From NCBI GenBank assembly GCA_016929065.1, contig JAFGJO010000065.1, positions 1-64,000 of the forward strand: a stretch of DNA of 64,000 nt. Reading direction: 5' to 3'. This DNA is from Spirochaetales bacterium (GTDB taxonomy: Bacteria; Spirochaetota; Spirochaetia; SZUA-6; RPPD01). The notes below the pieces were generated by a model that was given only the letters and a program-made list of their open reading frames with translations, was not told where the DNA came from and did no database searches. Positions within the stretch are counted from its first letter, which is position 1. Each line of letters opens with the position of its first letter. A program made the position numbers and the translations under genes. Below, in pieces: positions 4,254 through 18,797 of the stretch.

Positions 4254-6341
4254 TCAGGCTCTTGCCATTTCACGATTTGATTTGATGATCATGTCAGGAA
4301 TTTGCGAAGCCGGCACAGACCGTGAAAATAAAAAACCCTGATATTTTTCACATCCCAAATTCTTCAAAAACTCCAGCTGGGAGATATCTTCGACTCCTTC
4401 GGCGATAATATCAAATTTCAGGCTTTGAGCCATTGCCACAATCGCACGGACGATGGCAACCGCATCATCATCTCCCGGAACATCCATTATGAAGGAGCGG
4501 TCTATTTTCAAGGTAGAAAGCGGAAACCGTTTCAACATGGAGAGCGAAGAATACCCGGTACCAAAATCATCAATAGAAAGAGATACCCCCAGTTCCTTAA
4601 GCCGTTCCATGATGCGGATTGATGTCTCCGGATCGGTCATCGCATGGCTCTCGGTAATTTCAAGCTCAAGCCGCCGGGGATCAACACCTGTTTTTTCAAG
4701 CGTTCGTTTCAGGGTTTTCACCAGATCCTCCTGGTTGAATTGAAGCGGTGAAAGGTTCACTGCAAGGCGTTGAATATCCAGGCCATCGCTGGTCCACTCC
4801 TTGAACTGGGTGCATGCTTTTTCCAGTATCCACTCTCCAATTGGAATAATCATTCCATTGTCTTCTGCAAGCGGGATGAGCTGTCCCGGAGGAACAAGCC
4901 CGTTTTCCGGATTTTTCCAGTGAACAAGTACCTCAACTCCAAACATTCTTCCATTATATACATTGACAAGGGGCTGATAAAACAGGATCAACTCGTCGCG
5001 TTCGATAGCCTTGCGCAAAAGGGTTTCTATATTCATCCGCTCCTTGACTTCGCGGTACATATCTTCACAGAAAAATCTGAAATTATTGTTTCCGGCAGAT
5101 TTCGCCCGCTGCATTGCGGATTCTGCATCCTGAAGGGTCCGCTGTACTGACTCATATTTCTCATCAACAATTACCACTCCTATACTGGAGGTCACGATGA
5201 TTTCCTCGGTAAGCTGCGGTAATGAGATGGGGGCCGCAATGTTTTTTCTGATTTTCATCACCAGACTGGTGATATATTTTAAATGATGAAAATCGGGGAC
5301 CAAAAGCAGGAACTCATCGCGGCCAAAGTGCGCAAGAATGTCCTCGGGGCCGATTGTTTCATTGAGACGTGAGGCAATTTCCGCCAGTACCGCATCGCCG
5401 ACAACAATTCCCAGCGCCTGGTTGATGAGTTTAAAACGGTCCAGATCAATAAAAATCAGGGCCGCCTGCTGGTTTGGATTGTTTTTAAACTGCCGCAAGA
5501 GGCGTTCAATCTGGTCGAGCAGGAGCACCTGGTTGGGCAGTCCTGTCACAGCATTATAAATCCTGCGGTCGGTAATGTCGCTCATGGAGCCGGTCAGCCG
5601 GATAATCTCACCTGTTTCATCCGGGACCGCAATACCGGTTGTGATGACCCAGCGGTAACTGCCGTCCCGGTGAATAATCCGCTGTTCTTCTTCGAATCTG
5701 GTTATTTTGCCGCTGAGCATTTTTTCAAACGCCAGGGTCATGGTTCCCCGGTCTGCGGGATGGAGACGATCCAGCCAAATCTCCGGGGTATTCTCCAGCT
5801 CATCTTCCCCATAGCCGATTATCTTTTTCCAGTTCGGCGAGTAGTAAATCACGTTTTTCTCTATCTCCCAATCCCATAACCCGTCCATCGTGGCCTGGGC
5901 CGCAAGCGCATACCGCTCTTCACTCTTTTTTAATGCTTCCTGCGTTTTTTTCAGGGATATCTGCGTGCTGATACGGGAACGGATGACTGAAAAATCATAT
6001 GGTTTGGTCACATAGTCATTCGCACCAAGTGAAAGTGCTTTGATGATATGGGGATTGTCAGATACAGCGGTGAGCATAATAATCGGGAGCTCCATCATGG
6101 AAAACTTTTCCCTGACGACCTCCAGTACGGAAAATCCATCCATCTCCGGCATCATCACATCGAGCAGCATAAGATCAAATCTTATTTCAAGTATTTTTTC
6201 GATTGCAGATTTACCATCAAGCGCAGTTTGTATATGATATCCGGTTTTCGAAAGAATGGTATTCAACATAATAAGATTGTCTTTGTTGTCATCAACAATC
6301 AATATTCGTGCTTTATACTGATCCAAGTTCAGTTTTCGCAT
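4254..6341 (-). CDS. Receiver-PAS-GGDEF-EAL protein, probable c-di-GMP phosphodiesterase
   Basis: About 695 residues from the ATG at 6341, chosen over the ATG at 6353 because GGAG lies 6 bases upstream of it. Order: receiver (about 5-125) with the Asp pair IVDDNKD, phosphoacceptor in LLDVMMPEMDG, and TKP; PAS (about 145-265); GGDEF-like (about 270-430); EAL (about 445-690). The cyclase signature reads GRDEF instead of GGDEF, so the cyclase site is probably inactive or regulatory. The EAL domain keeps EVL, NLSP, ITES, IDDFGTGYSS, KIDRSF and AEGVED, so phosphodiesterase activity is expected. It stands alone on the minus strand. A phospho-input raising c-di-GMP hydrolysis is my inference. Confidence 0.9.
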   Translation of the reverse strand: MRKLNLDQYKARILIVDDNKDNLIMLNTILSKTGYHIQTALDGKSAIEKILEIRFDLMLLDVMMPEMDGFSVLEVVREKFSMMELPIIMLTAVSDNPHIIKALSLGANDYVTKPYDFSVIRSRISTQISLKKTQEALKKSEERYALAAQATMDGLWDWEIEKNVIYYSPNWKKIIGYGEDELENTPEIWLDRLHPADRGTMTLAFEKMLSGKITRFEEEQRIIHRDGSYRWVITTGIAVPDETGEIIRLTGSMSDITDRRIYNAVTGLPNQVLLLDQIERLLRQFKNNPNQQAALIFIDLDRFKLINQALGIVVGDAVLAEIASRLNETIGPEDILAHFGRDEFLLLVPDFHHLKYITSLVMKIRKNIAAPISLPQLTEEIIVTSSIGVVIVDEKYESVQRTLQDAESAMQRAKSAGNNNFRFFCEDMYREVKERMNIETLLRKAIERDELILFYQPLVNVYNGRMFGVEVLVHWKNPENGLVPPGQLIPLAEDNGMIIPIGEWILEKACTQFKEWTSDGLDIQRLAVNLSPLQFNQEDLVKTLKRTLEKTGVDPRRLELEITESHAMTDPETSIRIMERLKELGVSLSIDDFGTGYSSLSMLKRFPLSTLKIDRSFIMDVPGDDDAVAIVRAIVAMAQSLKFDIIAEGVEDISQLEFLKNLGCEKYQGFLFSRSVPASQIPDMIIKSNREMARA

Positions 6342-6740
6342 TATACTCTCCATAAATACCCACAGGATTAGTATCCATCCTGCTGTTACGATTGCAGATG
6401 GATTAAGCGAAACATTTTCTGCATATCACTTTTAATGATATTTCTTGGTCAGTTTTAATAATGGGAGGGCTGTTGTCCTATTAACTTTCAGGCAGCCCCT
6501 GTGTAAATTTACTGTATGGATGGTAACATATTCCAGATAGTATGTATACCTACTTTTTTTCCAATAGTTTTTCCTTATTTGCACTTACCATAGCATTTAT
6601 TTGTCACTTTCGTTAAAAATTCGCTATTGACATATAATAATCCTTTCCCTATTGTTTCATCAAATGTCAGATTAAATTCAGGGGATTTACAAAAATATTT
6701 GACAATATCTTTTGTTTTCCACTATCCCGGAAAAAACAGA
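6342..6740. other. Intergenic gap between divergent genes
   Basis: About 400 AT-rich bases separate the divergent c-di-GMP and ThDP-enzyme genes. Besides the candidate promoter at 6627-6655 I see no gene, RNA fold or repeat. The open frame of the ThDP gene extends back to 6627 but shows no family similarity there. Confidence 0.6.
6627..6655 (+). promoter_or_regulatory. Candidate promoter of the ThDP/citrate-synthase-like/kinase operon
   Basis: TTGACA (6627-6632), 17 bases, TATTGT (6650-6655). The longest open frame of the downstream gene would start on the TTG of this -35 box, which argues for the later ATG at 6741. Confidence 0.5.
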
Positions 6741-8531
6741 ATGTCGCCAATTGACTTTAGTATTACAAATTTCAAACAACTCAAGCAGAAGACCTGTGCT
6801 GAAGTATTGGTTGAGTACCTGGAGATAGAAGGGGTTGAATATGTGTTTGGTGTCTCCGGAGGCACGGTCATCTCCCTCCTTGAAGCCATCGATAAATCAG
6901 AAAAAATCAGTTTTATCATGTGCAAGCACGAAGGCAGTGCATCATTTATGGCTGATATGTACGCCCGTATGACAGGAAAAACAGGGGTATGCCTTTCCAC
7001 AGCCGGCCCTGGCGCGACCAATATGCTCACGGGGGTGGCCTGCGCCCAAATGGACAATATTCCGCTTCTGGCAATTACCGGGCAGCCGGCAACACATACA
7101 GCAGGAAAGGGTGCGGTCCAGGAAAGCTCTGAATTCGGTGTGGATACAGTCGCCATTTACGGCCAATTTACCGGTTTTTCATCATGCATCTCTGATGCTG
7201 CAGCCTTCCAGCAAATCCTTGTCCGCGCCCTCCGTGTCGCACAGGCTGAGTCAAAACAGGCGGTACACATCAGTATCCCTTCAAATATTTCAGGTCATAT
7301 ATTTGAATCAATAAACGTTCATACAAATTTCAAAAAATACCGTATTTCCCACGCGGCCATAGATTTTGCACAAATTCACAAAGCAGCCGAGATATTGATC
7401 AATGCAAAAAAACCATTAATCCTTTTGGGGAGCGGATTTCAATACGGTGAGCACATCGACGGATTGATCCGTATCGCTGAAATTGTCGGAAGCCCGGTTG
7501 TCACCACGCCCCAGGGAAAAGGGCTGTTCCCGGAGGATCACCCGCTCTCCCTGGGAGTGTTCGGATTTGCAGGAAATCTTTCGGCAAAAAAATATATGCT
7601 CGAAGAAAATATTGATGTATTGGTTGTTATCGCAAGCAGCCTGGGAGAATGGACCACGGAATCATGGAATCCCCGGCTTTTCCCGAGCAAGTATTTCATT
7701 CAAATTGATGTGGACTCACAGAATATCGGGCAGAATTTTCCTGTCAGTCTCGGTATTGTGGGAGATGTTTCAGCTGTCATCAAGGAACTCTATAAAATTC
7801 TTCTCAGTATGTCATGCCGTATTGATTCGGCCGGAAAAAATATACTGAAGCAAGAAACCAGACAGCGGAGAGAAAATGTTCTTTTACTGAAAAAAGAAAC
7901 GGGATCGGTTCAAAAGCCGCAAAAACTCCTTTCTGATGAAATTCCGCTGAAACCGCAGCGGGTCATGCATGATCTCAATATTTGTATCGAAAAGGATGCA
8001 GTGATTATTGTCGATGCCGGAAATGCCTATGCATGGACACTTCATTATCTCAAACTTCGGCATCCGCAGCGGTTTATTATCCCCTTGGGATTCGCTTCGA
8101 TGGGGCATGCGACTGCGGGCGTTATCGGCGCAGCACTCGGCGCGCCGCTTCGCCAGGTAATCGCTGTTGTCGGGGACGGCTCCATGCTGATGAACGGAAA
8201 TGAAGTCCATACAGCGGTTGAGTACAAAATTCCCGCAATTTGGATTATTTTGAATGACAGCCGATGGGGAATGGTGTATCATGGAAACAAAGCTGTTTCA
8301 GGAAAGGGGTTATCATCAGAATACCACAGTACGGATTTTGTGCAGTTTGCCCGGACGATGGGTGCGAAGGGATATCGTGTCACAAAACCGGGTGAATTGT
8401 GTAAAATTTTGCCGATAATTCAAAAAGAAAAACAGCCGACAGTGATCGATGTCATTATTGACGGAGATGAAGAACCTCCTTTTTTGGAAAGAGTTCTTGC
8501 AGTAAAACAGTATATGAAAAAAGATAATTAA
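6741..8531 (+). CDS. Thiamine-diphosphate enzyme of the acetolactate synthase family
   Basis: About 596 residues from the ATG at 6741, which starts MSPIDFSITNF just before the family N-terminus CAEVLVEYLEIEGVEYVFGVSGG. N-terminal Pyr domain with the catalytic Glu in CKHEGSASFM; a central domain; C-terminal PP domain with the ThDP/Mg2+ signature VVGDGSMLMNGNEVHTAVEY. Family members decarboxylate or cleave 2-oxo or 2-hydroxyacyl compounds; the substrate cannot be named. No small regulatory subunit (IlvH) gene is adjacent, so valine/isoleucine synthesis is unlikely. It heads a cluster with two citrate-synthase-fold genes and a sensor kinase, suggesting chemistry on acyl-CoA or carboxylate compounds (inference). 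Confidence 0.88.
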   Translation: MSPIDFSITNFKQLKQKTCAEVLVEYLEIEGVEYVFGVSGGTVISLLEAIDKSEKISFIMCKHEGSASFMADMYARMTGKTGVCLSTAGPGATNMLTGVACAQMDNIPLLAITGQPATHTAGKGAVQESSEFGVDTVAIYGQFTGFSSCISDAAAFQQILVRALRVAQAESKQAVHISIPSNISGHIFESINVHTNFKKYRISHAAIDFAQIHKAAEILINAKKPLILLGSGFQYGEHIDGLIRIAEIVGSPVVTTPQGKGLFPEDHPLSLGVFGFAGNLSAKKYMLEENIDVLVVIASSLGEWTTESWNPRLFPSKYFIQIDVDSQNIGQNFPVSLGIVGDVSAVIKELYKILLSMSCRIDSAGKNILKQETRQRRENVLLLKKETGSVQKPQKLLSDEIPLKPQRVMHDLNICIEKDAVIIVDAGNAYAWTLHYLKLRHPQRFIIPLGFASMGHATAGVIGAALGAPLRQVIAVVGDGSMLMNGNEVHTAVEYKIPAIWIILNDSRWGMVYHGNKAVSGKGLSSEYHSTDFVQFARTMGAKGYRVTKPGELCKILPIIQKEKQPTVIDVIIDGDEEPPFLERVLAVKQYMKKDN

Positions 8532-8600
8532 CTCCGGACAGTACTCTGTATTTGTACGGTCATGAAATCTCGGCTTTCTCATGGGGTATAACAAGAGCAG

Positions 8601-9452
8601 GTGAGAGATTTGGAAAGAGAGGAATTGTCTTTGAAAACGTTGAGCCAAAAAATCCGCACTTCAATCTGGCAGGAAACCCCGAATCCTGACAATTCTTTTT
8701 ACCCTGAATACAGTTTTTGTCACGGATTTGACTTCTATAATGAACTCCTCGAAAGCAAAAACTTCATTGAACTGCTCTTTTTAACATTCACCGGTGATCT
8801 CCCGACAAAAAGCCAGGAACTGCATTTATCACTGCTGCTGTCATCGGTCATGAATTCAGGCCCGCGGGATCTGGCCAACCGCGCTGCGATGTCCGCGGCC
8901 GCAGGCGGCGCACCAGCGGGGAGTGCATTAATCGCAGGATTGTGCGCATCAACCGGAAAAAAGGAAGGCGGCGGTGCAGTCCAGACCGTAATGGAGATGA
9001 TTACAGAGCTCCGCAAAAAGCATCGGGATAAAGGAATAAAACAGATTCCGTACAGTCGTATTGAAAAGGAGTATTCAAGACACGGCAGTATTTTCGGGTA
9101 CGGTACATTATACGGGAAAAAAGACTCTCATGCAGAAAAATTAACCTCTTTATTGTATAAAAACAATTTTGACGGTCCGGGATTGCGGCTCTTCCTGAAA
9201 CTGGGCAAAAGCGTAGAAAAAAGAGCCGGAGAGTGGCCAAGACTCTACGGTGTATTTGCGTCCTCCCTTCTGGACCTCGGGTTTTCTCCTCTTCAGGGTC
9301 ATGGCGTCTATATGCTCGCAAATGGAATAGGAATGCTCGGTTTTGTATGCGAACGGTATGAACAACACTGGACAGATTTTCCCACGTGGTTTACTCATGG
9401 AACGTATGAATATCATCCAGATATTCTGGCATTAAAAAAAGAGAGGGTATAG
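8601..9452 (+). CDS. Citrate-synthase-fold protein A, catalytic residues substituted
   Basis: 283 residues from GTG at 8601; a TTG at 8631 behind AGAGG is an alternative. The small size and GPRDLANRAAMSAAAGGAPAG resemble the lyase-type branch of the citrate synthase superfamily (citryl-CoA lyase and the C-terminus of ATP-citrate lyase). The three active-site positions look changed: the first-His segment (LHGGA type) reads KKEGGGA, the GxGH segment reads IFGYGTLYG, and the NVDG segment reads RLYG. If this by-eye alignment is right, it cannot act as a normal synthase or lyase. It lies between a ThDP enzyme and a second, equally degenerate paralogue 7 bases downstream, so a heteromer, a ligand sensor or a different reaction is possible. 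Confidence 0.72.
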   Translation: MRDLEREELSLKTLSQKIRTSIWQETPNPDNSFYPEYSFCHGFDFYNELLESKNFIELLFLTFTGDLPTKSQELHLSLLLSSVMNSGPRDLANRAAMSAAAGGAPAGSALIAGLCASTGKKEGGGAVQTVMEMITELRKKHRDKGIKQIPYSRIEKEYSRHGSIFGYGTLYGKKDSHAEKLTSLLYKNNFDGPGLRLFLKLGKSVEKRAGEWPRLYGVFASSLLDLGFSPLQGHGVYMLANGIGMLGFVCERYEQHWTDFPTWFTHGTYEYHPDILALKKERV

Positions 9453-9459
9453 CAGAACC

Positions 9460-10293
9460 ATGGATGTATCAGCATTGCAAAAAAACCGGCTCCGGCACCT
9501 GGAACAACAATATAACAGGATTACCACTTCTCTCGGCGGCATAGTAAAAAACACCTTTATATACTGCGGAGAAGATGTGACCAATACGTTGGGAGGTACT
9601 TTTTCCCAAACCGCCGCATTTCTATTATGGGTACTTGGACGAAAACCAACCGAAGAAGAAACCCGTCTGGTAGATACGATCATCTGCCTGAATATTTATC
9701 CTGATCCGCGTATTTGGAGCATCCGTTCCGGCGCCTATGCTGCTGTCCAGGATGCACCGCTTTCGGCATGCATTGCTGCAGGCCACATTGCCGCAAACGG
9801 AAAAATATTCGGCATCGGTGCTGTTTTACAATGCTCATCTTTCTTCAAAGATCTACTGGCAAGATTGAAAAAAAACAGCATGGAAACTGTAGTGAAAGCA
9901 TTCCTCATGCAAAATAAATTCTTCCCTGGATTCGGACGGCCGCTGATTCAGGGTAATGATGAGCGATATATTCGTTTACAGGCATTGCTTAAAGAATGGA
10001 ATTATCGGATTGGCATTCACACCAAAACGCTCTACAAGCTTGCACCAATACTTGAGGACGCCAGGGGATTATATCCAAATTTTGCTTCACTTTTAACGAC
10101 ACTCATGCTGGACGACCCGTTTCAATGTTCAGACAATCAGTTGACAATCCTTTCACATATAATGGTAAATCTGCCATCTGCAGTTGTCGCAGTAGAGCGT
10201 CATGACAACAAGAACATTCCGTTTCTTCCGTTAAAAGTGATTGATATTGAATACACAGGGAAACCAAGACGAACACTGGAGAACCATTCATGA
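9460..10293 (+). CDS. Citrate-synthase-fold protein B, catalytic residues substituted
   Basis: 277 residues, ATG at 9460 behind GAGAGGG. It follows the same fold as its upstream neighbour: helical N-terminal part with LGRKPTEEE, then FFPGFGRPLI where active family members have PGFGHRVY. The first-His segment reads KIFGIGAV and the catalytic-Asp segment LYPNFAS, so all three catalytic positions appear lost here too. The A and B proteins diverge strongly, fitting a heterodimer and not a recent duplication. The stop overlaps the start of the giant kinase (ATGA), which couples their translation. Function unknown. Confidence 0.68.
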   Translation: MDVSALQKNRLRHLEQQYNRITTSLGGIVKNTFIYCGEDVTNTLGGTFSQTAAFLLWVLGRKPTEEETRLVDTIICLNIYPDPRIWSIRSGAYAAVQDAPLSACIAAGHIAANGKIFGIGAVLQCSSFFKDLLARLKKNSMETVVKAFLMQNKFFPGFGRPLIQGNDERYIRLQALLKEWNYRIGIHTKTLYKLAPILEDARGLYPNFASLLTTLMLDDPFQCSDNQLTILSHIMVNLPSAVVAVERHDNKNIPFLPLKVIDIEYTGKPRRTLENHS

Positions 10294-13200
10294 GTACAGC
10301 CATTTTTTCAGAAAAATTTACACTTGAAACCCAGCTTGCTGACAGTGGTCTGAGTGAAACATGGATTGTCAGGCATAATAAAACTCATGAAGAGTTTATC
10401 CTTATAAAAATCCCTGCAGATAAACGAACACGATATCTGGATAATCTGCTCCTGTTTCAAAAACAGGTTGATTATCTCGCTGACAAGGAGATTCCCCATA
10501 TTGCAAAAATAATCGAGTTTTTTGAAGTGGAAGATCATTTTTGCATAGTACGCCAAAAACTGGATGGTATAAATCTCTTGCAATATCTAACAGAACATCC
10601 TGAAATCGATACTATCACTTTTTTAAAAATCGCAATCCCGATTGCACAGACAATCGGATTTCTTCATTCAAATAACATGATTCACGGGAACCTGAAACCG
10701 GAAAATATTTTTCTGTCCGAGCAAGATGATAAAATCGAAGTAACCATCGCGGATTTTGGAATACATCTTGTCCGTGATATTCACAAGGCGTTCCAGCTCC
10801 GGCGGTCAGAGATCTTCAGCTTTATGGCTCCGGAACAAAGTGGTGTGCTAAAAAGGCCAATCGGCCCCCATACTGATTTATATACACTTGGAGTAATTTT
10901 TTACACAATTCTTGCAGGAAGGCCTCCTTTTTCCCATGAGAACATTTATTCACTCCTTCACATGCATATTGCCTCACATCCGCAGCCGATAAGCGAATAC
11001 AATGAACATGTCCTGCCCGAGATCGAACTCATTATTCAGAAACTCATGCAAAAAGACATTTCATCACGCTATAAAAACGCGGAATCCCTTTCAAAAGAAC
11101 TGCAGCACCTGTATACAGAGCTTTCCCGGAATAAAAACAAGGAGTCAGTCACCCCGGCAATGTACGAAAAAACAGGGGATATCCGGGATGTCCACTCCTT
11201 TGTCGGCAGGAATGAGGAGCTGAACAGTCTTCACCATATCTATCAGAATACATTGGAAAACAGAGGTGCACTGATTGTCATTGAAGGAAATCCAGGAACC
11301 GGAAAATCCCGCCTTGTTGAGGCATTCAGTGAACATGTCATTTATTCCGGAGGGCTCTTTGTTTCTTCCAGTTTTATGGAAATTGAGACCCCGCTCCCCT
11401 ATTCCAGTCTCACGAGATGTATGCATAATTTTTTCAAGATTATCGAGATGTTTCCCAGAGAGATTCATTCTGCAGTCGAACTCTCGATTCAAAATACGAT
11501 AGGCAATCTTGGATTCCTTTTTCTTCCCTATATCCCGGAACTCAAAGAATATGTTCAATCAGAGCCAGATATCGGCCAAACAGATCCGCAACAGGCCAGG
11601 ACATTGTTTGAAGATACTTTTGAACGGCTTCTCCATGCAATAGCCAAACATTTTCCTTCTATCGTCTTTTTTATTGATAATTTGCAATGGGCAGATGAAA
11701 ACACCATGCGTTTTCTGTGTAAAATAGCTGAATCAAAAAATCTCGGGAATATTCTGTTTCTTGCCGCGATGCGCCCGGTTGAAAACTTTACAGACAATGA
11801 AACAGTAAAATATATCAGCAAAATTAAAAATTTTAAAACCACACAAATCATTTCGATTGACAATCTTTCAAAACAGGAAGTTGCAGAGCTCATCTCATCC
11901 ATGCTCGGTGAAGAAACCTCTGTGGTAACCGATCTTGCAGAAATAGTACACACCAAGACCGCAGGAAATGCGTTATTTGTCAAGGAATTTATCCTTCTTC
12001 TTTTGCGCGAAAAAAATATTATCTATGAAGACGGCTGGAAAATACATACCGACAAAATTGCACTCCTCCCGGTTACAGAAAATATGACCAGTGTTCTATT
12101 GAATACAATAAACCATTTGTCTGATGAAGAACAGTATGTATTGTCAATTGCCGCTGTCTTCGGGAAAGAATTTGAATTTCACCATATTGCCGAATGCTGC
12201 ACTGACATTGATATCGACACACTATTCGATGTAATAGAGACCGGAAAAAATAACAAAATACTGCTTTCGGGGCAGGGATCGATTTTGTTCAGCCATGATC
12301 TCATTCATAAAATGTTCTATAATCAGCTGAATGAAGAAATTCGCTCAAGGTATCATGAAATCCTGGGTGCCTACTACGAAAAGATTTTCGGCAATGACCC
12401 GGGTGCAGTGTATAAAATACTGCATCATTATAATAATTCAAATAATACAAAAAAAAGCATTGAGTTCAGTATCAAGGCAGGAGAATTTGCACAGGAGCGG
12501 AACAGCCACCAGGATGCGGTGCGCTTTTTTTCTGACGCAATTAAATCTCTCAATGAACATCCGGAACTCAAAGATTTTAACCAGACAAATTTGCATGAAA
12601 AGCTCGGCGAATCGTTGAAGCACCAGGGAGATTATGAAGCGTCGCGGAAGAATTTTGAAATGGCGCTATCACTGGTTACCGATTTACAGCAGCGCAGTGA
12701 ACTCTATAAAAAACTGAGCTATACAGAAGTGGCTGCAGGCAATTATGGCGAGGCGATTGATACGCTGACCAAAGCATTATCCCTGTATGGATTTACCGTT
12801 CCGAAAAGCACCCCGATGCTTGGAATGCGCCTTTTGGGAGGACTGTTCAAACAATTTATCCATTCCCGCTTTCCCTTTTTCTTTATTAAACAGAATCCCG
12901 CAGAACACAATAATCCGAAATATCAGCGTCAGATTTTGTTCCAGATGATCGGATGGGTATGTCTGTGGGCGATAAAACAGGATTTGCTCATTTATTCCCA
13001 CTTCACCGCCCTCAATTATTGTGACAATGCAGGAATAAGCGAAGAAGGGCTGGAACTCCTTTTAACGCACTGTGCTGTATTGGGTTCAATTGACGGCCCT
13101 CCTCCGATGATCAGAATGTTTTTCAAACGAATACATAAATTTCTGGCCCGTATTGACCATGCGTTACACCAACTGGGTAATCCGCCAATTCTGCAGGCTC

Positions 13201-16196
13201 TATACCTGGCAGCAAGCGGTAGTATTACTTTTAATGCAGATGCATATGAGAAAGCGGCTGCTGCCATGATGATTCTCAGGGAAAAACATACAGGCACCTA
13301 TTTGCAGGAAATTTCCAATTGTGCGGCCCAGGTGTATGAAGTACACGGCAAGTTTCAGGATCTGCTGCTGCTCGCAGAAGAAGTGAGAAACCGGGGTGCA
13401 ATGTTCACAAATAAAATCCTTGTCAGCATAGGAGATTTATTCGAAGGTATTGCGCAATACTACCTGGGGAATAATGATACCGCAATTAAAATACTTGAAG
13501 AGGCATACCATTCCTTCGCTGCGATTTCTGACAAAGTAAACGGCCATTATGTCCGTCTGTTTTTGCTCAAGGCATATGCACGCTGCGGCAATTACCAGAA
13601 AGTTGAGGAGTATTTTAATGAATCTGTGTCTATAATAAAAAAGGAAAAACAAACACATCCTGTTGTTATTGCCCGAATCTATCCTTTCTTTTTGGAGGAG
13701 CTTCTCGACCGGTATATTGCGTTTTCCGGAGATGAAAAAGAGCGTCAAAGACGACTTGCACTGGCAAAGACCTGTTATAAAAAATGCCGGGCCCTTGAAA
13801 AATCCTACACTTCCCACAGGATACTCTTTTTCCGGATTTCAGCATTGTATCACTGGATTGTTTTGCACAATGCACGAAAAGCCAGGAAGATATTCACAGA
13901 AGGGATTCAAGCTGCTTCTGACAGTCCGCAGGATTACAATAAAGGGATGCTTCATTTCCGCTACGGTGAATTTCTGATGAAACGAGATCCAATAGAATCA
14001 CTCAACCAGCTCGAGAAGGCCTACGTAATCCTTGAAAAATGCCAGACATCCCATGAGCTGAAAATAATCGAGCGCCGCATCCAGGAAATCCTTGAATTGA
14101 AAAACCGGATCGAAGACCAAAATCACAAACATTCTGCGCTGGGCCATGAAAGCGAAAACAGCAGCAGCTTTACCACTACCCGTGAACTCGATACGGTTAT
14201 CGATATCAGTAAAAAAATAAGCTTTATTGATGATATAAAAGTGTTGATGGATGAAGTTTTGCAGCATGCGATTCAGTTTGTCGGCGCAGAGCAGGGAGAA
14301 CTTTTTTTACTCGAAGGGTCCAGACTGGTTTCAAAATTCCATATTGCTCTCTCGGGTGCCCAAGATATTCCTTCAAGTCCCGGTGTTGTTTCAAAAGCGG
14401 ACTATCTTGGCCAGCCTTTGGTGATAAGCGATGCCCGAAGGGATGCAACTTTCCGGAATGATCCCACTGTTATAAAATACGGCTTGAAATCAATTCTGTG
14501 CGTTCCCCTGATCAGCCGCGATAAACGGATCGGCATACTCTATTTAAGCAATCATCATATAGCAGGGCTGTTTACCGAACACGAGCTGGATTTGCTGAAT
14601 GCGATGGCCGGACAAGCCGCGATAGCAATTGAAAACTCATTATTGTTCCGTGAAACAAAACGCCTTCAGACACATCTGACAAGCATCATAGACTCTCTCC
14701 CCGGGGCATTGATTGCGCTCGACAACAATGGAAGAATCACCTATATAAATAATGCTGCAAAATTATTTTTTCCGGAACTTGCAAAGTGTAACCCCGGTCA
14801 ACTGCTGTGGAATGCCGTATCCGTTCTTTCAAAATATAAAAACTCGTTTGATGAAGTTATTTCAGCAAAAAGTGTGGTTGAACTGCCGAGGGAAGTGATG
14901 AGCAAACATTTTATGCGCATCACCATTTTCCCCCTGCTTGACAATGAGGTGCGCGGAGCAGTTATCAAGGTCAATGATATTACTGAACATGAAAAAATCC
15001 AGCAGCATCTGGTACAGGCACAAAAGATGGAAACCGTCGAAACTCTGGTCGGTGGCCTTGCTCACGACTTCAACAATATCCTCGGTGGGATACTCGCCAC
15101 AATAAGCTTTTTGAACCAGAGTATACTCCCATCAAAAAGCACTTTTACAAAGGATGATTTTGAAGAAGAGTTTTCCATGATCACCACATTAATCAACAGG
15201 GCGATTTCTCTGGTTCAGCAGCTGTTGACAATTTCCATGAGAAAGGAAGTTCATTTCACTCAGGTGGATGTCGTGGAATCGGTGAAGAATGTTTTAAAAA
15301 TATGCAGGCAGTCATTCGATAAAAGCATCAAGTTCAATCTTGATTTGCCCGAATTCCCGGCCATTATCAATGCTGATATCGCCCAACTGGAACAGGTGAT
15401 CCTTAATCTCTGTATTAATGCCTCACACGCGATGACAATTATGAAACGCGCGGATGAGAAATGGGGCGGGACACTTTCTGTGCATATCGAAAAATCGGTT
15501 CTCGACAAACCCGTCGGAAACAGACTGGTGGATGTACATCAGGGGGAGTACTGGTGTTTGTCAATTGAAGATACTGGAGTGGGAATGTCGGAAGAAATCC
15601 TGAAAAAAATATTTGAACCGTTTTTCACAACAAAGGATACCGGAAAGGGAACCGGATTGGGATTGGCAATGGTATACAGTATTGTTCGGCGTTTCAATGG
15701 ACATATTAATGTATATTCTGAACCGGATCAGGGAACCATGGTCCATTTGTACTTTCCAATCAAAAAACCGTCTGCCAATGTTCAGGAGAAGCAGTGCGAG
15801 AATCGTCCCTTACATCACAGTGACGAAACGATTCTTGTCATCGAAGACGAGGTTGTGATCAGAAAATCTGTTGAAAAAATCCTGGAATCAGCAGGATACA
15901 CTGTATTCACCGCAAAGGACGGCAAATCCGGAATTGCATGTTTCAGCGAGCATATCAACAATATTGATCTCGTCCTTCTTGATATGGTAATGCCCGGGGA
16001 ATCGGGCAAATATGTTTTTCAGAAAATAATGGAGATAAAACCCTCCACCCGTGTGGTACTCATGTCAGGATTCAGAAAGGACCAGCGGGTCGAAGATGTA
16101 ATTGAAATGGGAGCATCCGGATTTTTGCAGAAACCGTTTAATCAGGATGAGCTTTTTAATGTGATCAGAGCAGTACTCGCCGAAGAATCATCATGA
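10290..16196 (+). CDS. Giant hybrid sensor kinase: pseudokinase-ATPase-TPR-GAF-PAS-histidine kinase-receiver
   Basis: 1968 residues, cytoplasmic, no membrane segment seen. Order: Ser/Thr-kinase-like domain (about 10-275), AAA/STAND ATPase (about 305-640; Walker A GNPGTGKS near 335, Walker B IVFFIDNLQWAD near 465), helical repeat region to about 1300, GAF (about 1315-1455), PAS (about 1465-1575), HisKA with H1592 in AHDFNN, HATPase (DTGVGMS, GKGTGLGLAM), and a C-terminal receiver with Asp 1898 in LLDMVMPGESG. In the kinase head the catalytic loop reads H-G-N-L-K-P-E-N, so the catalytic Asp is Asn134, while DFG (155-157) is intact and the glycine loop is poor: probably a pseudokinase or ligand module. 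Homologous multi-domain kinases occur in cyanobacteria and deltaproteobacteria. Coupled to the citrate-synthase-like pair, it may read their ligand (inference). Confidence 0.9.
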   Translation: MSTAIFSEKFTLETQLADSGLSETWIVRHNKTHEEFILIKIPADKRTRYLDNLLLFQKQVDYLADKEIPHIAKIIEFFEVEDHFCIVRQKLDGINLLQYLTEHPEIDTITFLKIAIPIAQTIGFLHSNNMIHGNLKPENIFLSEQDDKIEVTIADFGIHLVRDIHKAFQLRRSEIFSFMAPEQSGVLKRPIGPHTDLYTLGVIFYTILAGRPPFSHENIYSLLHMHIASHPQPISEYNEHVLPEIELIIQKLMQKDISSRYKNAESLSKELQHLYTELSRNKNKESVTPAMYEKTGDIRDVHSFVGRNEELNSLHHIYQNTLENRGALIVIEGNPGTGKSRLVEAFSEHVIYSGGLFVSSSFMEIETPLPYSSLTRCMHNFFKIIEMFPREIHSAVELSIQNTIGNLGFLFLPYIPELKEYVQSEPDIGQTDPQQARTLFEDTFERLLHAIAKHFPSIVFFIDNLQWADENTMRFLCKIAESKNLGNILFLAAMRPVENFTDNETVKYISKIKNFKTTQIISIDNLSKQEVAELISSMLGEETSVVTDLAEIVHTKTAGNALFVKEFILLLLREKNIIYEDGWKIHTDKIALLPVTENMTSVLLNTINHLSDEEQYVLSIAAVFGKEFEFHHIAECCTDIDIDTLFDVIETGKNNKILLSGQGSILFSHDLIHKMFYNQLNEEIRSRYHEILGAYYEKIFGNDPGAVYKILHHYNNSNNTKKSIEFSIKAGEFAQERNSHQDAVRFFSDAIKSLNEHPELKDFNQTNLHEKLGESLKHQGDYEASRKNFEMALSLVTDLQQRSELYKKLSYTEVAAGNYGEAIDTLTKALSLYGFTVPKSTPMLGMRLLGGLFKQFIHSRFPFFFIKQNPAEHNNPKYQRQILFQMIGWVCLWAIKQDLLIYSHFTALNYCDNAGISEEGLELLLTHCAVLGSIDGPPPMIRMFFKRIHKFLARIDHALHQLGNPPILQALYLAASGSITFNADAYEKAAAAMMILREKHTGTYLQEISNCAAQVYEVHGKFQDLLLLAEEVRNRGAMFTNKILVSIGDLFEGIAQYYLGNNDTAIKILEEAYHSFAAISDKVNGHYVRLFLLKAYARCGNYQKVEEYFNESVSIIKKEKQTHPVVIARIYPFFLEELLDRYIAFSGDEKERQRRLALAKTCYKKCRALEKSYTSHRILFFRISALYHWIVLHNARKARKIFTEGIQAASDSPQDYNKGMLHFRYGEFLMKRDPIESLNQLEKAYVILEKCQTSHELKIIERRIQEILELKNRIEDQNHKHSALGHESENSSSFTTTRELDTVIDISKKISFIDDIKVLMDEVLQHAIQFVGAEQGELFLLEGSRLVSKFHIALSGAQDIPSSPGVVSKADYLGQPLVISDARRDATFRNDPTVIKYGLKSILCVPLISRDKRIGILYLSNHHIAGLFTEHELDLLNAMAGQAAIAIENSLLFRETKRLQTHLTSIIDSLPGALIALDNNGRITYINNAAKLFFPELAKCNPGQLLWNAVSVLSKYKNSFDEVISAKSVVELPREVMSKHFMRITIFPLLDNEVRGAVIKVNDITEHEKIQQHLVQAQKMETVETLVGGLAHDFNNILGGILATISFLNQSILPSKSTFTKDDFEEEFSMITTLINRAISLVQQLLTISMRKEVHFTQVDVVESVKNVLKICRQSFDKSIKFNLDLPEFPAIINADIAQLEQVILNLCINASHAMTIMKRADEKWGGTLSVHIEKSVLDKPVGNRLVDVHQGEYWCLSIEDTGVGMSEEILKKIFEPFFTTKDTGKGTGLGLAMVYSIVRRFNGHINVYSEPDQGTMVHLYFPIKKPSANVQEKQCENRPLHHSDETILVIEDEVVIRKSVEKILESAGYTVFTAKDGKSGIACFSEHINNIDLVLLDMVMPGESGKYVFQKIMEIKPSTRVVLMSGFRKDQRVEDVIEMGASGFLQKPFNQDELFNVIRAVLAEESS

Positions 16197-16233: not shown

Positions 16234-17472
16234 TCAAAAAGTGTATGAATCAAAAAAATCCCGGAATTTATCGTTGAGCGAATCAATCTCTTCCTGAACA
16301 GGTTCAGGAGGAAGCGACATATCAATCATGCGGTATACCGGGCCGTCAGAATGAACTTCCAGCGATGGATCACCCAGGATCACCATTCCCAGAAACCAGC
16401 TGTCACTCGTATTGCCGTAGTGATTGTACCATTGCTTGTATGCATCTGCCCATGTGCCTTTTCTTGAAAGAATATCATAGAACACCAGCGGCTGATAGCA
16501 CCCTCCCACTTTAGTGGAACCGAATATTGCCATAGCGTAATCAGTTTTCATAAGGTAAGTCATACCGATATTTTCTTCGGTAAACCGGGCAGCACTGCAG
16601 TCAAAAAGATTATAAAAATGCCCCTTAAAATTCCAGTTACTGATATCATTCAGTGATATTTGGCGATACTGATTATTTTCAATGACATACAGGGCCCGGG
16701 GATAGGAGTGTATCCACTGGTTGATAAATTCTGCTCCGTCATTGGTAAGGCGCCAGGCATATTCGTCGCGGGTGGTAATCACCGGGGATTCTGCTATCTC
16801 GAAATCACGATAAATACGGGATAATCCAAAACTGGACCCCCGTTGAAAATCAAACCAGTCATCATCCTTGAAAATAAATCCTGATGCAGGGAGACGAATC
16901 TCTCCTGTCCGAAAATTGTGTAGTTTATGAAAATAACCTTTTAATTCCTGTTCTGATCCAATAATCCGGGAAACAGGAAGGGTCACGCTTATTTTCGTAT
17001 GATGGTCAAGCAGTCCATTGTTATCCGAATCCCACCAGACACTTTCATCATCCATAAAATACAAATCACTAGGAAATACCTCATACCGTCCTTCCGCGTT
17101 CATTTCATACCAGGCAACCGGGAGTGAGCCCACAAGCATCACCGAATCGGCTTTTTTGACATCTGCGGTAATATGAAGAAACGACCGGAACTCTTCAAAG
17201 GTACCTGACTGCCATACCGTCACCACTGTGTTTAGACCGGCAACGGATAGATCATCGGTATATACCTGCAACTCAGAAAAAAGCGGATCGTACAACCCGT
17301 CCTCGACCACCACCAGAACTGTATCTGTTTTTGAAAAGACAGAGGGAAAATCGTCTTTTGAACCAAGAAATAAAAAAGAACATCCCGACACAAGAATAAA
17401 AAGAGACAACAAAAGCACTGACAGAAAATATTTTCTTATTATACGAAAGGAAAAAACAGGTTGTTTGTTCAT
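16234..17472 (-). CDS. Lipoprotein with a gingipain (C25) peptidase-like domain
   Basis: 412 residues, ATG behind AAGGG. N-terminal signal with a hydrophobic run and lipobox LVSGC (Cys about 31), so an exported lipoprotein. The body shows the C25-type pattern: VMLVGSLPVAWYEM, FPSDLYFMD, VSRIIGSEQEL, and a candidate His/Cys pair in GHFYNLFDCSAARF, then the typical GDPSLEV near the end. Gingipains are secreted cysteine endopeptidases; the family also holds proteins involved in secretion without proven protease activity. It ends convergently with the giant kinase gene and carries no dispersed-word copy. Confidence 0.68.
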   Translation of the reverse strand: MNKQPVFSFRIIRKYFLSVLLLSLFILVSGCSFLFLGSKDDFPSVFSKTDTVLVVVEDGLYDPLFSELQVYTDDLSVAGLNTVVTVWQSGTFEEFRSFLHITADVKKADSVMLVGSLPVAWYEMNAEGRYEVFPSDLYFMDDESVWWDSDNNGLLDHHTKISVTLPVSRIIGSEQELKGYFHKLHNFRTGEIRLPASGFIFKDDDWFDFQRGSSFGLSRIYRDFEIAESPVITTRDEYAWRLTNDGAEFINQWIHSYPRALYVIENNQYRQISLNDISNWNFKGHFYNLFDCSAARFTEENIGMTYLMKTDYAMAIFGSTKVGGCYQPLVFYDILSRKGTWADAYKQWYNHYGNTSDSWFLGMVILGDPSLEVHSDGPVYRMIDMSLPPEPVQEEIDSLNDKFRDFFDSYTF

Positions 17473-17615: not shown

Positions 17616-18797
17616 ATGCCGAAAAAACCCTGGATCATCCTGCTTGTTTCATTATGTTATATTGTTTCACCTTTTTTCATCCTCCTGCAGGCGTCGATAA
17701 TTACCAATTATCCAATCATTGGATTTATCAATATTTTTCAAAAACTGTCAATTTTTGACTGGATACTACTTGCAATCTATTTCATCGCGGCTGTATCGAT
17801 TTTTTCGGTAAAGAAATGGGGCTGGTACTGCTTTATCGTGGCTTCCATTCTGCTTGTTGCGTCCAATAGTATCATATTCATCCTCCGTCCCTATTATGCA
17901 GCAGGTGCGCTTGTTGCGTATAATCTCATTATCTCTGTAGCTGCGGGCATATTTTTCCGGCGGGAGTTGATTGCGCCCTATTTTAACCCGCAAATAAGAT
18001 GGTGGACACAGGCTCCCCGCTACAGCATTGAATACACAGCCGAGATAGGCTACAAGCCGGGCCGTATCAGTGCTGAAATCCTTGACATTTCAGAAACCGG
18101 TATTTTTGTGATCACCGAAAAACCCCTTGAAGAACACACACCCTACCCGATGTGTATTCGATGCGCCGGTTATCGGATTTTAGTTGACGCAAAAGTGGTC
18201 CGGATGAAGGAACTTGCTGACGAAACACTAAAAAAAGGGTATGGCATGAAGTTTATCCATATCTCTGCTATCGAAAAAAAAGCCTTGAGCGCCCTTATCC
18301 TTCGATTGGAAAAAGGCGGAATGTCCGATACTGAACGGTTAATTTTCGAGCAGAATGAAAAAAAACTGCAGACATCGCCCCGATTTGTTATTCAAACCTC
18401 TGCGTTGATGCGGGTAAACAATAAAACACACGGGGGAAAACTGAAGGATATCTCGGCAACCGGCTGCCTGCTGAAAGTCCCCGGATTTCAAACACTTTCC
18501 CCCGGACTCCCGGTGCATCTGACACTTTCCTGTTTTTCCCGGCTCGCCGAAATCAATGGTATTGTCTGCTGGCTGAAAAACGAGGAGAATACCGCACTTG
18601 CAGGAATTGTGTTCACTGACCCATCCAAAAAAACACAGGAGACGGTAAAATGCATTATTAATGCAGGAAAAACAGCGGGAGCACAACTCCGACTAAAAAC
18701 AGCCCGTCCGCTGCCGATGGAAAAGATCGAAGAGTATGCACTCAACAGCCCCTATAAAATAATTCATGGTGTGAAGAAAAAAGTGTTAAAAAGATAA
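17616..18797 (+). CDS. Membrane protein with two PilZ-like domains
   Basis: 393 residues. Four or so hydrophobic segments lie in the first 120 residues, then two tandem cytoplasmic PilZ-like units: one around 130-225 with ILDISETGIFV, another around 245-340 with LKDISATGCLL. PilZ domains bind c-di-GMP through an RxxxR motif plus D/NxSxxG. The second half is present in both units, but the first reads RYSIE and RFVIQ, lacking the second Arg, so binding may be weak or absent. Linkage to the EAL protein at 4.3-6.3 kb is suggestive only. A copy of the dispersed word encodes ILRP at the last membrane segment. Confidence 0.75.
   Translation: MPKKPWIILLVSLCYIVSPFFILLQASIITNYPIIGFINIFQKLSIFDWILLAIYFIAAVSIFSVKKWGWYCFIVASILLVASNSIIFILRPYYAAGALVAYNLIISVAAGIFFRRELIAPYFNPQIRWWTQAPRYSIEYTAEIGYKPGRISAEILDISETGIFVITEKPLEEHTPYPMCIRCAGYRILVDAKVVRMKELADETLKKGYGMKFIHISAIEKKALSALILRLEKGGMSDTERLIFEQNEKKLQTSPRFVIQTSALMRVNNKTHGGKLKDISATGCLLKVPGFQTLSPGLPVHLTLSCFSRLAEINGIVCWLKNEENTALAGIVFTDPSKKTQETVKCIINAGKTAGAQLRLKTARPLPMEKIEEYALNSPYKIIHGVKKKVLKR
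17881..17891 (-). repeat. GGGACGGAGGA word, copy 2 (in PilZ gene)
   Basis: TCCTCCGTCCC, read as Leu-Arg-Pro in the PilZ protein frame. Confidence 0.7.

Follow-up and report, generated by a model that had tools for sequence, protein, structure and literature searches.

The window, a stretch of 64,000 nucleotides from a Spirochaetales bacterium (contig JAFGJO010000065.1; genome G000), raises the question of what a ThDP enzyme, two degenerate proteins of the citrate synthase fold (A and B) and a very large kinase do together in one operon. Four intact genes are present within 6741-16196 (Table 1). The four-gene operon, the coordinates of its genes, the length of 1968 residues for the kinase and the ATGA coupling of B to the kinase, all claimed by a sequence-only reading of this DNA, were confirmed; the overlap of 4 bases between the B and kinase genes was found in the window as well as in the second locus described below (L016). 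That reading had missed a fifth gene, encoding a divergent regulator, as well as the kinship of the ThDP enzyme to CybE/BbmA and the position of GAF as the best-conserved part of the kinase. Comparison with the orthologue (MKTLSQKIRTSIW vs MKKLENKIKTSIW) indicated that the true start of A is likely the TTG at 8631. The G+C content of the cassette is slightly below that of most of the window.

Table 1. Features of the five-gene cassette (positions in the window)
Feature	Position	Strand	Basis and remarks
REC-PAS-GGDEF-EAL regulator	4254..6353	-	Pfam; divergent from the operon; 63% identical orthologue at L016; fifth member
Divergent intergenic region, 387 bases	6354..6740		No Rfam match; no riboswitch upstream of the operon at Rfam gathering scores
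ThDP-dependent carboligase, 596 aa	6741..8531	+	Pfam; catalytic Glu (KHEG), GDG...ND motif; BbmA closest among solved structures (41%)
Protein A, degenerate citryl-CoA-lyase/citrate-synthase fold	8601..9452 as annotated	+	Four catalytic residues absent
Protein B, degenerate citryl-CoA-lyase/citrate-synthase fold	9460..10293	+	Arg at H320 site, DxR Arg, C-terminal YTGxxxR tail
Cytosolic hybrid kinase, Ser/Thr kinase-AAA_16-TPR-GAF-PAS-HisKA-HATPase-REC	10290..16196	+	Pfam; ATGA overlap with B

Two genes lie beyond the kinase. A 412-residue lipoprotein-like protein without a Pfam match is encoded at 16234-17472, convergent with the kinase. A PilZ protein with two PilZ stretches and N-terminal hydrophobic segments is encoded just downstream (17616-18797), outside the conserved cassette, and could be a reader of c-di-GMP.

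The assignment of A and B to the citrate synthase fold agreed with the Pfam and structure searches. The Pfam Citrate_synt model was matched just over its cut-off of 27 bits by A (31.7 bits) and B (27.6 bits), and the NCBIfam citryl-CoA lyase subfamilies (PRK06224) were not reached, the best scores of A and B being 69 and 45 bits against cut-offs of 245 and 212. Among solved structures, the best phmmer match for both proteins was the citryl-CoA lyase 6hxp (4e-8 for A and 3e-6 for B), which was matched at 9e-59 by a family profile including A and B. A Foldseek search, run with a partial and poor model of B only, also placed 6hxp on top (5e-6). AlphaFold models of A and B, made from two-row alignments, had mean pLDDT values of 35 and 51 and were unusable for pocket or interface analysis. 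In a tree, both proteins were placed apart from the lyases; long branches meet there, so that the status of A and B as sister duplicates is not readable from it.

The active-site residues of A and B were compared by alignment at four positions (H238, H274, H320, and D375 in pig numbering) with lyases and true citrate synthases as references; the L084 row was left out of the citrate synthase comparison. The sites, given as window/orthologue, were found to be Ser/Pro in A and Pro/Pro in B at H238, Glu/Gln in A and Phe/Phe in B at H274, and Thr/Phe in A and Arg/Arg in B at H320 (the GxGH His), while D375 corresponded to a gap with a Tyr beside it in A and to Ala/Ala in B. All four residues are intact in L082 and L083, the true citrate synthases of the two genomes with the cassette. 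The reported absence of the first His, the GxGH His, and the catalytic Asp was thus borne out in both proteins, and the middle His is missing too; the sequence alignment puts no His or Asp at any of the four positions.

The loss of the same residues in A and B had been taken as a sign of a new role. This argument stood in that the losses recur in the orthologues and the frames are selected, and was weakened in that the Asp is often missing (Pro, Ser or Thr), and in some cases the middle His (Ile or Phe), from citryl-CoA-lyase-like homologues of the same order, Rhizobiaceae, and haloarchaea. Loss of the Asp alone is therefore not special, and only the loss of H238 and of the GxGH His sets A and B apart. 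By alignment, A and B are the extreme of a trend within lyase-like proteins. The two proteins differ in what they retain: in B, the motif DPR has become DER, with its Arg preserved, and the YTGxxxR tail is still lyase-like; neither feature survives in A. The Arg at the old H320 site of B is common to both orthologues, and conservation in B is higher around the old active site (46/68) than elsewhere (92/207), a difference reached by 7 of the 274 circular shifts. In A, conservation of the old active-site segments is within chance (57/272 circular shifts).

Among the lyase-like proteins of the order, one from other families (L017:7969-8793, L018:8229-9080, L019:7621-8454, and L021:1830-2654) keeps the three His residues, while its Asp motif is replaced by NAPGA. 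Its gene has the same two neighbours (HAD-like and aminotransferase-like, by eye) at three of these four loci, and an aldolase-like gene and a transporter also adjoin it at two. The annotated "citryl-CoA lyases" of Rhizobiaceae/Aminobacter (L058:6947-7759, L061:6974-7783, and L062:4980-5792) have the middle catalytic His replaced by Ile and the Asp by Ser. Those at L061 and L062 adjoin CoA-transferase and extradiol dioxygenase genes, so that the annotated activity of these lyases is doubtful.

The same operon was found in a second genome, the Spirochaetales MAG G002 (Zod_Metabat.1377, JAFGGG010000009.1; locus L016), with identities to the window of 69% for the ThDP enzyme, 46-48% for A, 51-52% for B, 52% for the kinase, and 63% for the regulator. 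All five genes occur together in both genomes, and the genes beyond the cassette differ. A search of 26 genomes of the order recovered close orthologues of A only in these two, and likewise of the regulator (at E<=1e-120); no such orthologue of either gene was present in G001, the family's third genome. No further orthologue of B was found among 392 genomes sampled across the phylum, which gave weak lyase matches only. Beyond the phylum, the searches consisted of short peptide patterns and plasmids only: the pattern scan of genome contigs gave no match for A and only JAFGGG010000009.1 for B, the plasmids gave only ordinary citryl-CoA lyases, which lacked the cassette context wherever this could be checked from the annotation or by reading, and viral contigs gave no match. 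The co-occurrence of the genes, proposed earlier as a check, thus showed within this sample a set conserved as a unit (five genes in 2/26 genomes of the order, with different flanks). With two draft genomes as the sample, the five genes keep together as a unit.

The divergence between the orthologues is concentrated at third codon positions, which differ by 59-68% over the five genes as against 15-30% for second positions. In A and B, third positions differ by 65-68% vs 29-44% at positions 1 and 2, and the frames are intact. Judging from this codon-position pattern, all five genes are under protein-coding constraint. It is very unlikely that the locus is a catabolic or biosynthetic cluster that was moved horizontally and carries a local regulator, A and B being decaying lyases without a special role; the two sporadic holders and the slightly low G+C would fit such a history, but A and B share the same losses at about 46-51% identity while their frames remain open and under constraint, and the kinase and regulator have been retained alongside them.

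In the ThDP enzyme, Pfam recognised three TPP_enzyme domains (E 1e-35 to 1e-39), whereas its scores for the named NCBIfam families listed all stayed under the respective cut-offs. The catalytic Glu and the ThDP motif (Table 1) are present in both orthologues. Its nearest solved structure is BbmA, with 41% identity over 577 residues (others at most 34%), a level from which substrate specificity cannot be read. A tree placed the window enzyme outside the acetolactate-synthase-like clade (97/99), within the limits set by one row in the wrong frame and by long branches. CsmA and "BpmA" have been called homologues of CybE that make alpha-hydroxy-beta-keto acids (PMC12395478), and the "BpmA" of the furanolide literature is presumably the BbmA of the PDB. 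CybE carries out an acyloin condensation of two 2-oxo acids, the product of which is passed to CybF, a user of acyl-CoA (PMC12395478, PMC8777810); CybF is a ketosynthase III-like furanolide synthase (PMC12395478). On a Calothrix brevissima plasmid (L071:4773-7786), a CybE-like ThDP gene adjoins a KAS III gene, and the two are a candidate core pair for furanolide synthesis. No CybF/KAS III gene lies beside the ThDP gene of the window, its neighbours being A, B, and the kinase.

Elsewhere, genome G000 encodes two further members of the ThDP superfamily (acetolactate-synthase-like), IlvC, and a true citrate synthase, so that the cassette is probably accessory and not part of primary metabolism. 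Because of these other copies, the cassette was rejected as the source of the primary acetolactate synthase or citrate synthase.

The main rival to the reading preferred below takes up the place left by CybF. According to it, A and B together make up a heteromeric enzyme whose chemistry has been re-engineered to condense the ThDP product with an acyl-CoA, and the kinase and regulator merely control a small biosynthetic operon. CybE-type ThDP genes do adjoin genes for acyl-CoA-using ketosynthases, as in CybE/CybF (PMC12395478) and Calothrix NIES22_70370/70380, acyl-CoA and keto acids are joined by enzymes of the fold to which A and B belong, and B has kept an Arg at two active-site positions. 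The general acid/base residues of the fold, however, are all gone in A and B, and the cassette has no acyl-CoA ligase or tailoring enzymes, which leaves this replacement of CybF possible but somewhat unlikely.

The features of a hybrid histidine kinase are present in both orthologues of the kinase, namely, the H-box HDFNN, HATPase_c, and a receiver with LLDMVMP, the HisKA domain being below the Pfam cut-off, and no membrane part was recognised by Pfam. Among its domains, identity to the orthologue is highest in GAF (71%), followed by the histidine kinase core (69%), and lowest in the Ser/Thr kinase domain (38%). The latter reads HGNLKPEN in the window, with Asn in place of the catalytic Asp of the HRD motif, and HGDIKPGN in the orthologue, DFG being present in both; in the window, this domain may be a recent pseudokinase. 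Strongly conserved stretches also occur near residues 885-940, in the large AAA/TPR region. As for a role in phage defence, A and B had no match in PADLOC and the kinase matched only generic kinase-domain models, and this role was rejected.

The third-ranked reading, the view taken from the sequence alone, makes A and B a pseudoenzyme sensor of acyl-CoA or carboxylate that would, when bound to the kinase, set its activity, with the ThDP enzyme supplying or consuming the ligand; the same view allowed for a heterodimer of A and B, or for a scaffold that would serve the ThDP enzyme. The loss of catalytic residues in both proteins with selected frames, the overlap of the B and kinase genes in both genomes, and a large AAA/TPR region that could dock proteins, with its strongly conserved stretches, are consistent with it; the kinase, however, owns a well-conserved GAF domain, and such a sensor is unlikely. 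As GAF is its best-conserved part, the kinase itself is plausible as the receptor.

As a whole, the locus is best explained, albeit tentatively, as a five-gene cassette for synthesis, sensing, and output. The ThDP enzyme, by analogy with its relative CybE, would join two 2-oxo acids with loss of CO2 to give an alpha-hydroxy-beta-keto acid or an acyloin. A and B would form a heteromer of the citryl-CoA lyase fold that makes no citrate and binds or further converts this keto-acid product, with B possibly the carboxylate-binding half, through the Arg at the H320 site and the DxR Arg, and A the structural half. The GAF domain of the kinase may then detect the product in the cytosol, and the kinase would phosphorylate its own REC domain and that of the divergent GGDEF-EAL protein and so change c-di-GMP. 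The conserved co-occurrence in different flanks, the B-kinase overlap in both genomes, the BbmA kinship of the ThDP enzyme, the probable place of the cassette outside primary metabolism, the GAF domain as the best-conserved one of the kinase, the conservation of B near its old active site, and the precedent of synthases encoded beside sensors were counted for this cassette reading. Counted against it were the active-site segments of A, conserved no more than expected by chance, the number of orthologous cassettes (only two, both in draft genomes), and the fact that a REC domain in a neighbour does not prove cognate phosphotransfer. The cassette contains no exporter or membrane sensor, and cell-to-cell signalling is therefore not implied.

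It is rather unlikely that the cassette is a spirochaete signalling module in which the ThDP enzyme makes a keto-acid or acyloin messenger, a pseudoenzyme heteromer of A and B carries or reports it, and the soluble kinase relays it to c-di-GMP turnover. If this were true, a citrate synthase fold would have been turned into a signalling part; to our knowledge, proteins of this fold are known only as enzymes. With its classical catalytic residues gone, a conserved pair next to a carboligase and a kinase would clearly exemplify the shift of this fold to binding, to signalling or to new chemistry. The cassette gives a testable prediction for the ligand of a giant orphan hybrid kinase, and the combination of a probable keto-acid carboligase, the A/B pair and this kinase in a rare cassette of two uncultured spirochaetes suggests an unstudied link between the making and the sensing of a small molecule.

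Comparison with known systems was made for each part and for the whole. The earlier statement that no system of such make-up has been described held for the gene set and for a lyase-fold pair without classical catalytic residues, no description of which was found in the open-access literature, and not for the parts, each of which belongs to a known superfamily. A and B are similar to citryl-CoA lyase (6hxp; PRK06224) and the lyase module of ATP-citrate lyase in length (~275 aa) and fold; unlike citryl-CoA lyase, they are changed at all four catalytic positions, remain under every NCBIfam cut-off, and occur as two diverged tandem copies. The ThDP enzyme resembles CybE, BbmA, and CsmA, the alpha-hydroxy-beta-keto acid synthases of the cyanobacterin and furanolide pathways, in domain make-up, catalytic Glu, and ThDP motif, but is only 31% identical to a cyanobacterial CybE-like protein, and its partners are a citrate-synthase-fold pair and a kinase instead of CybF/KAS III. 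Other Ser/Thr-kinase-AAA-TPR-GAF-HK hybrids of the order show 23-27% identity to the kinase over its N-terminal 1470 residues or part of them; in contrast to these, the cassette kinase overlaps B and keeps its ThDP, A, and B neighbours in both genomes. A precedent for a synthase beside a sensor is provided by the alpha-hydroxyketone pairs CqsA/CqsS and LqsA/LqsS (PMC3376566). Like these, and like Lqs with its receiver protein LqsR, the cassette encodes a small-molecule C-C-bond synthase beside a sensor histidine kinase and a receiver protein, a resemblance that would be a likeness in working and not membership. The synthase chemistry is unrelated, CqsA and LqsA being PLP enzymes, and the cassette has a ThDP enzyme, the extra A/B pair, a soluble multidomain kinase, and a c-di-GMP enzyme as neighbour.
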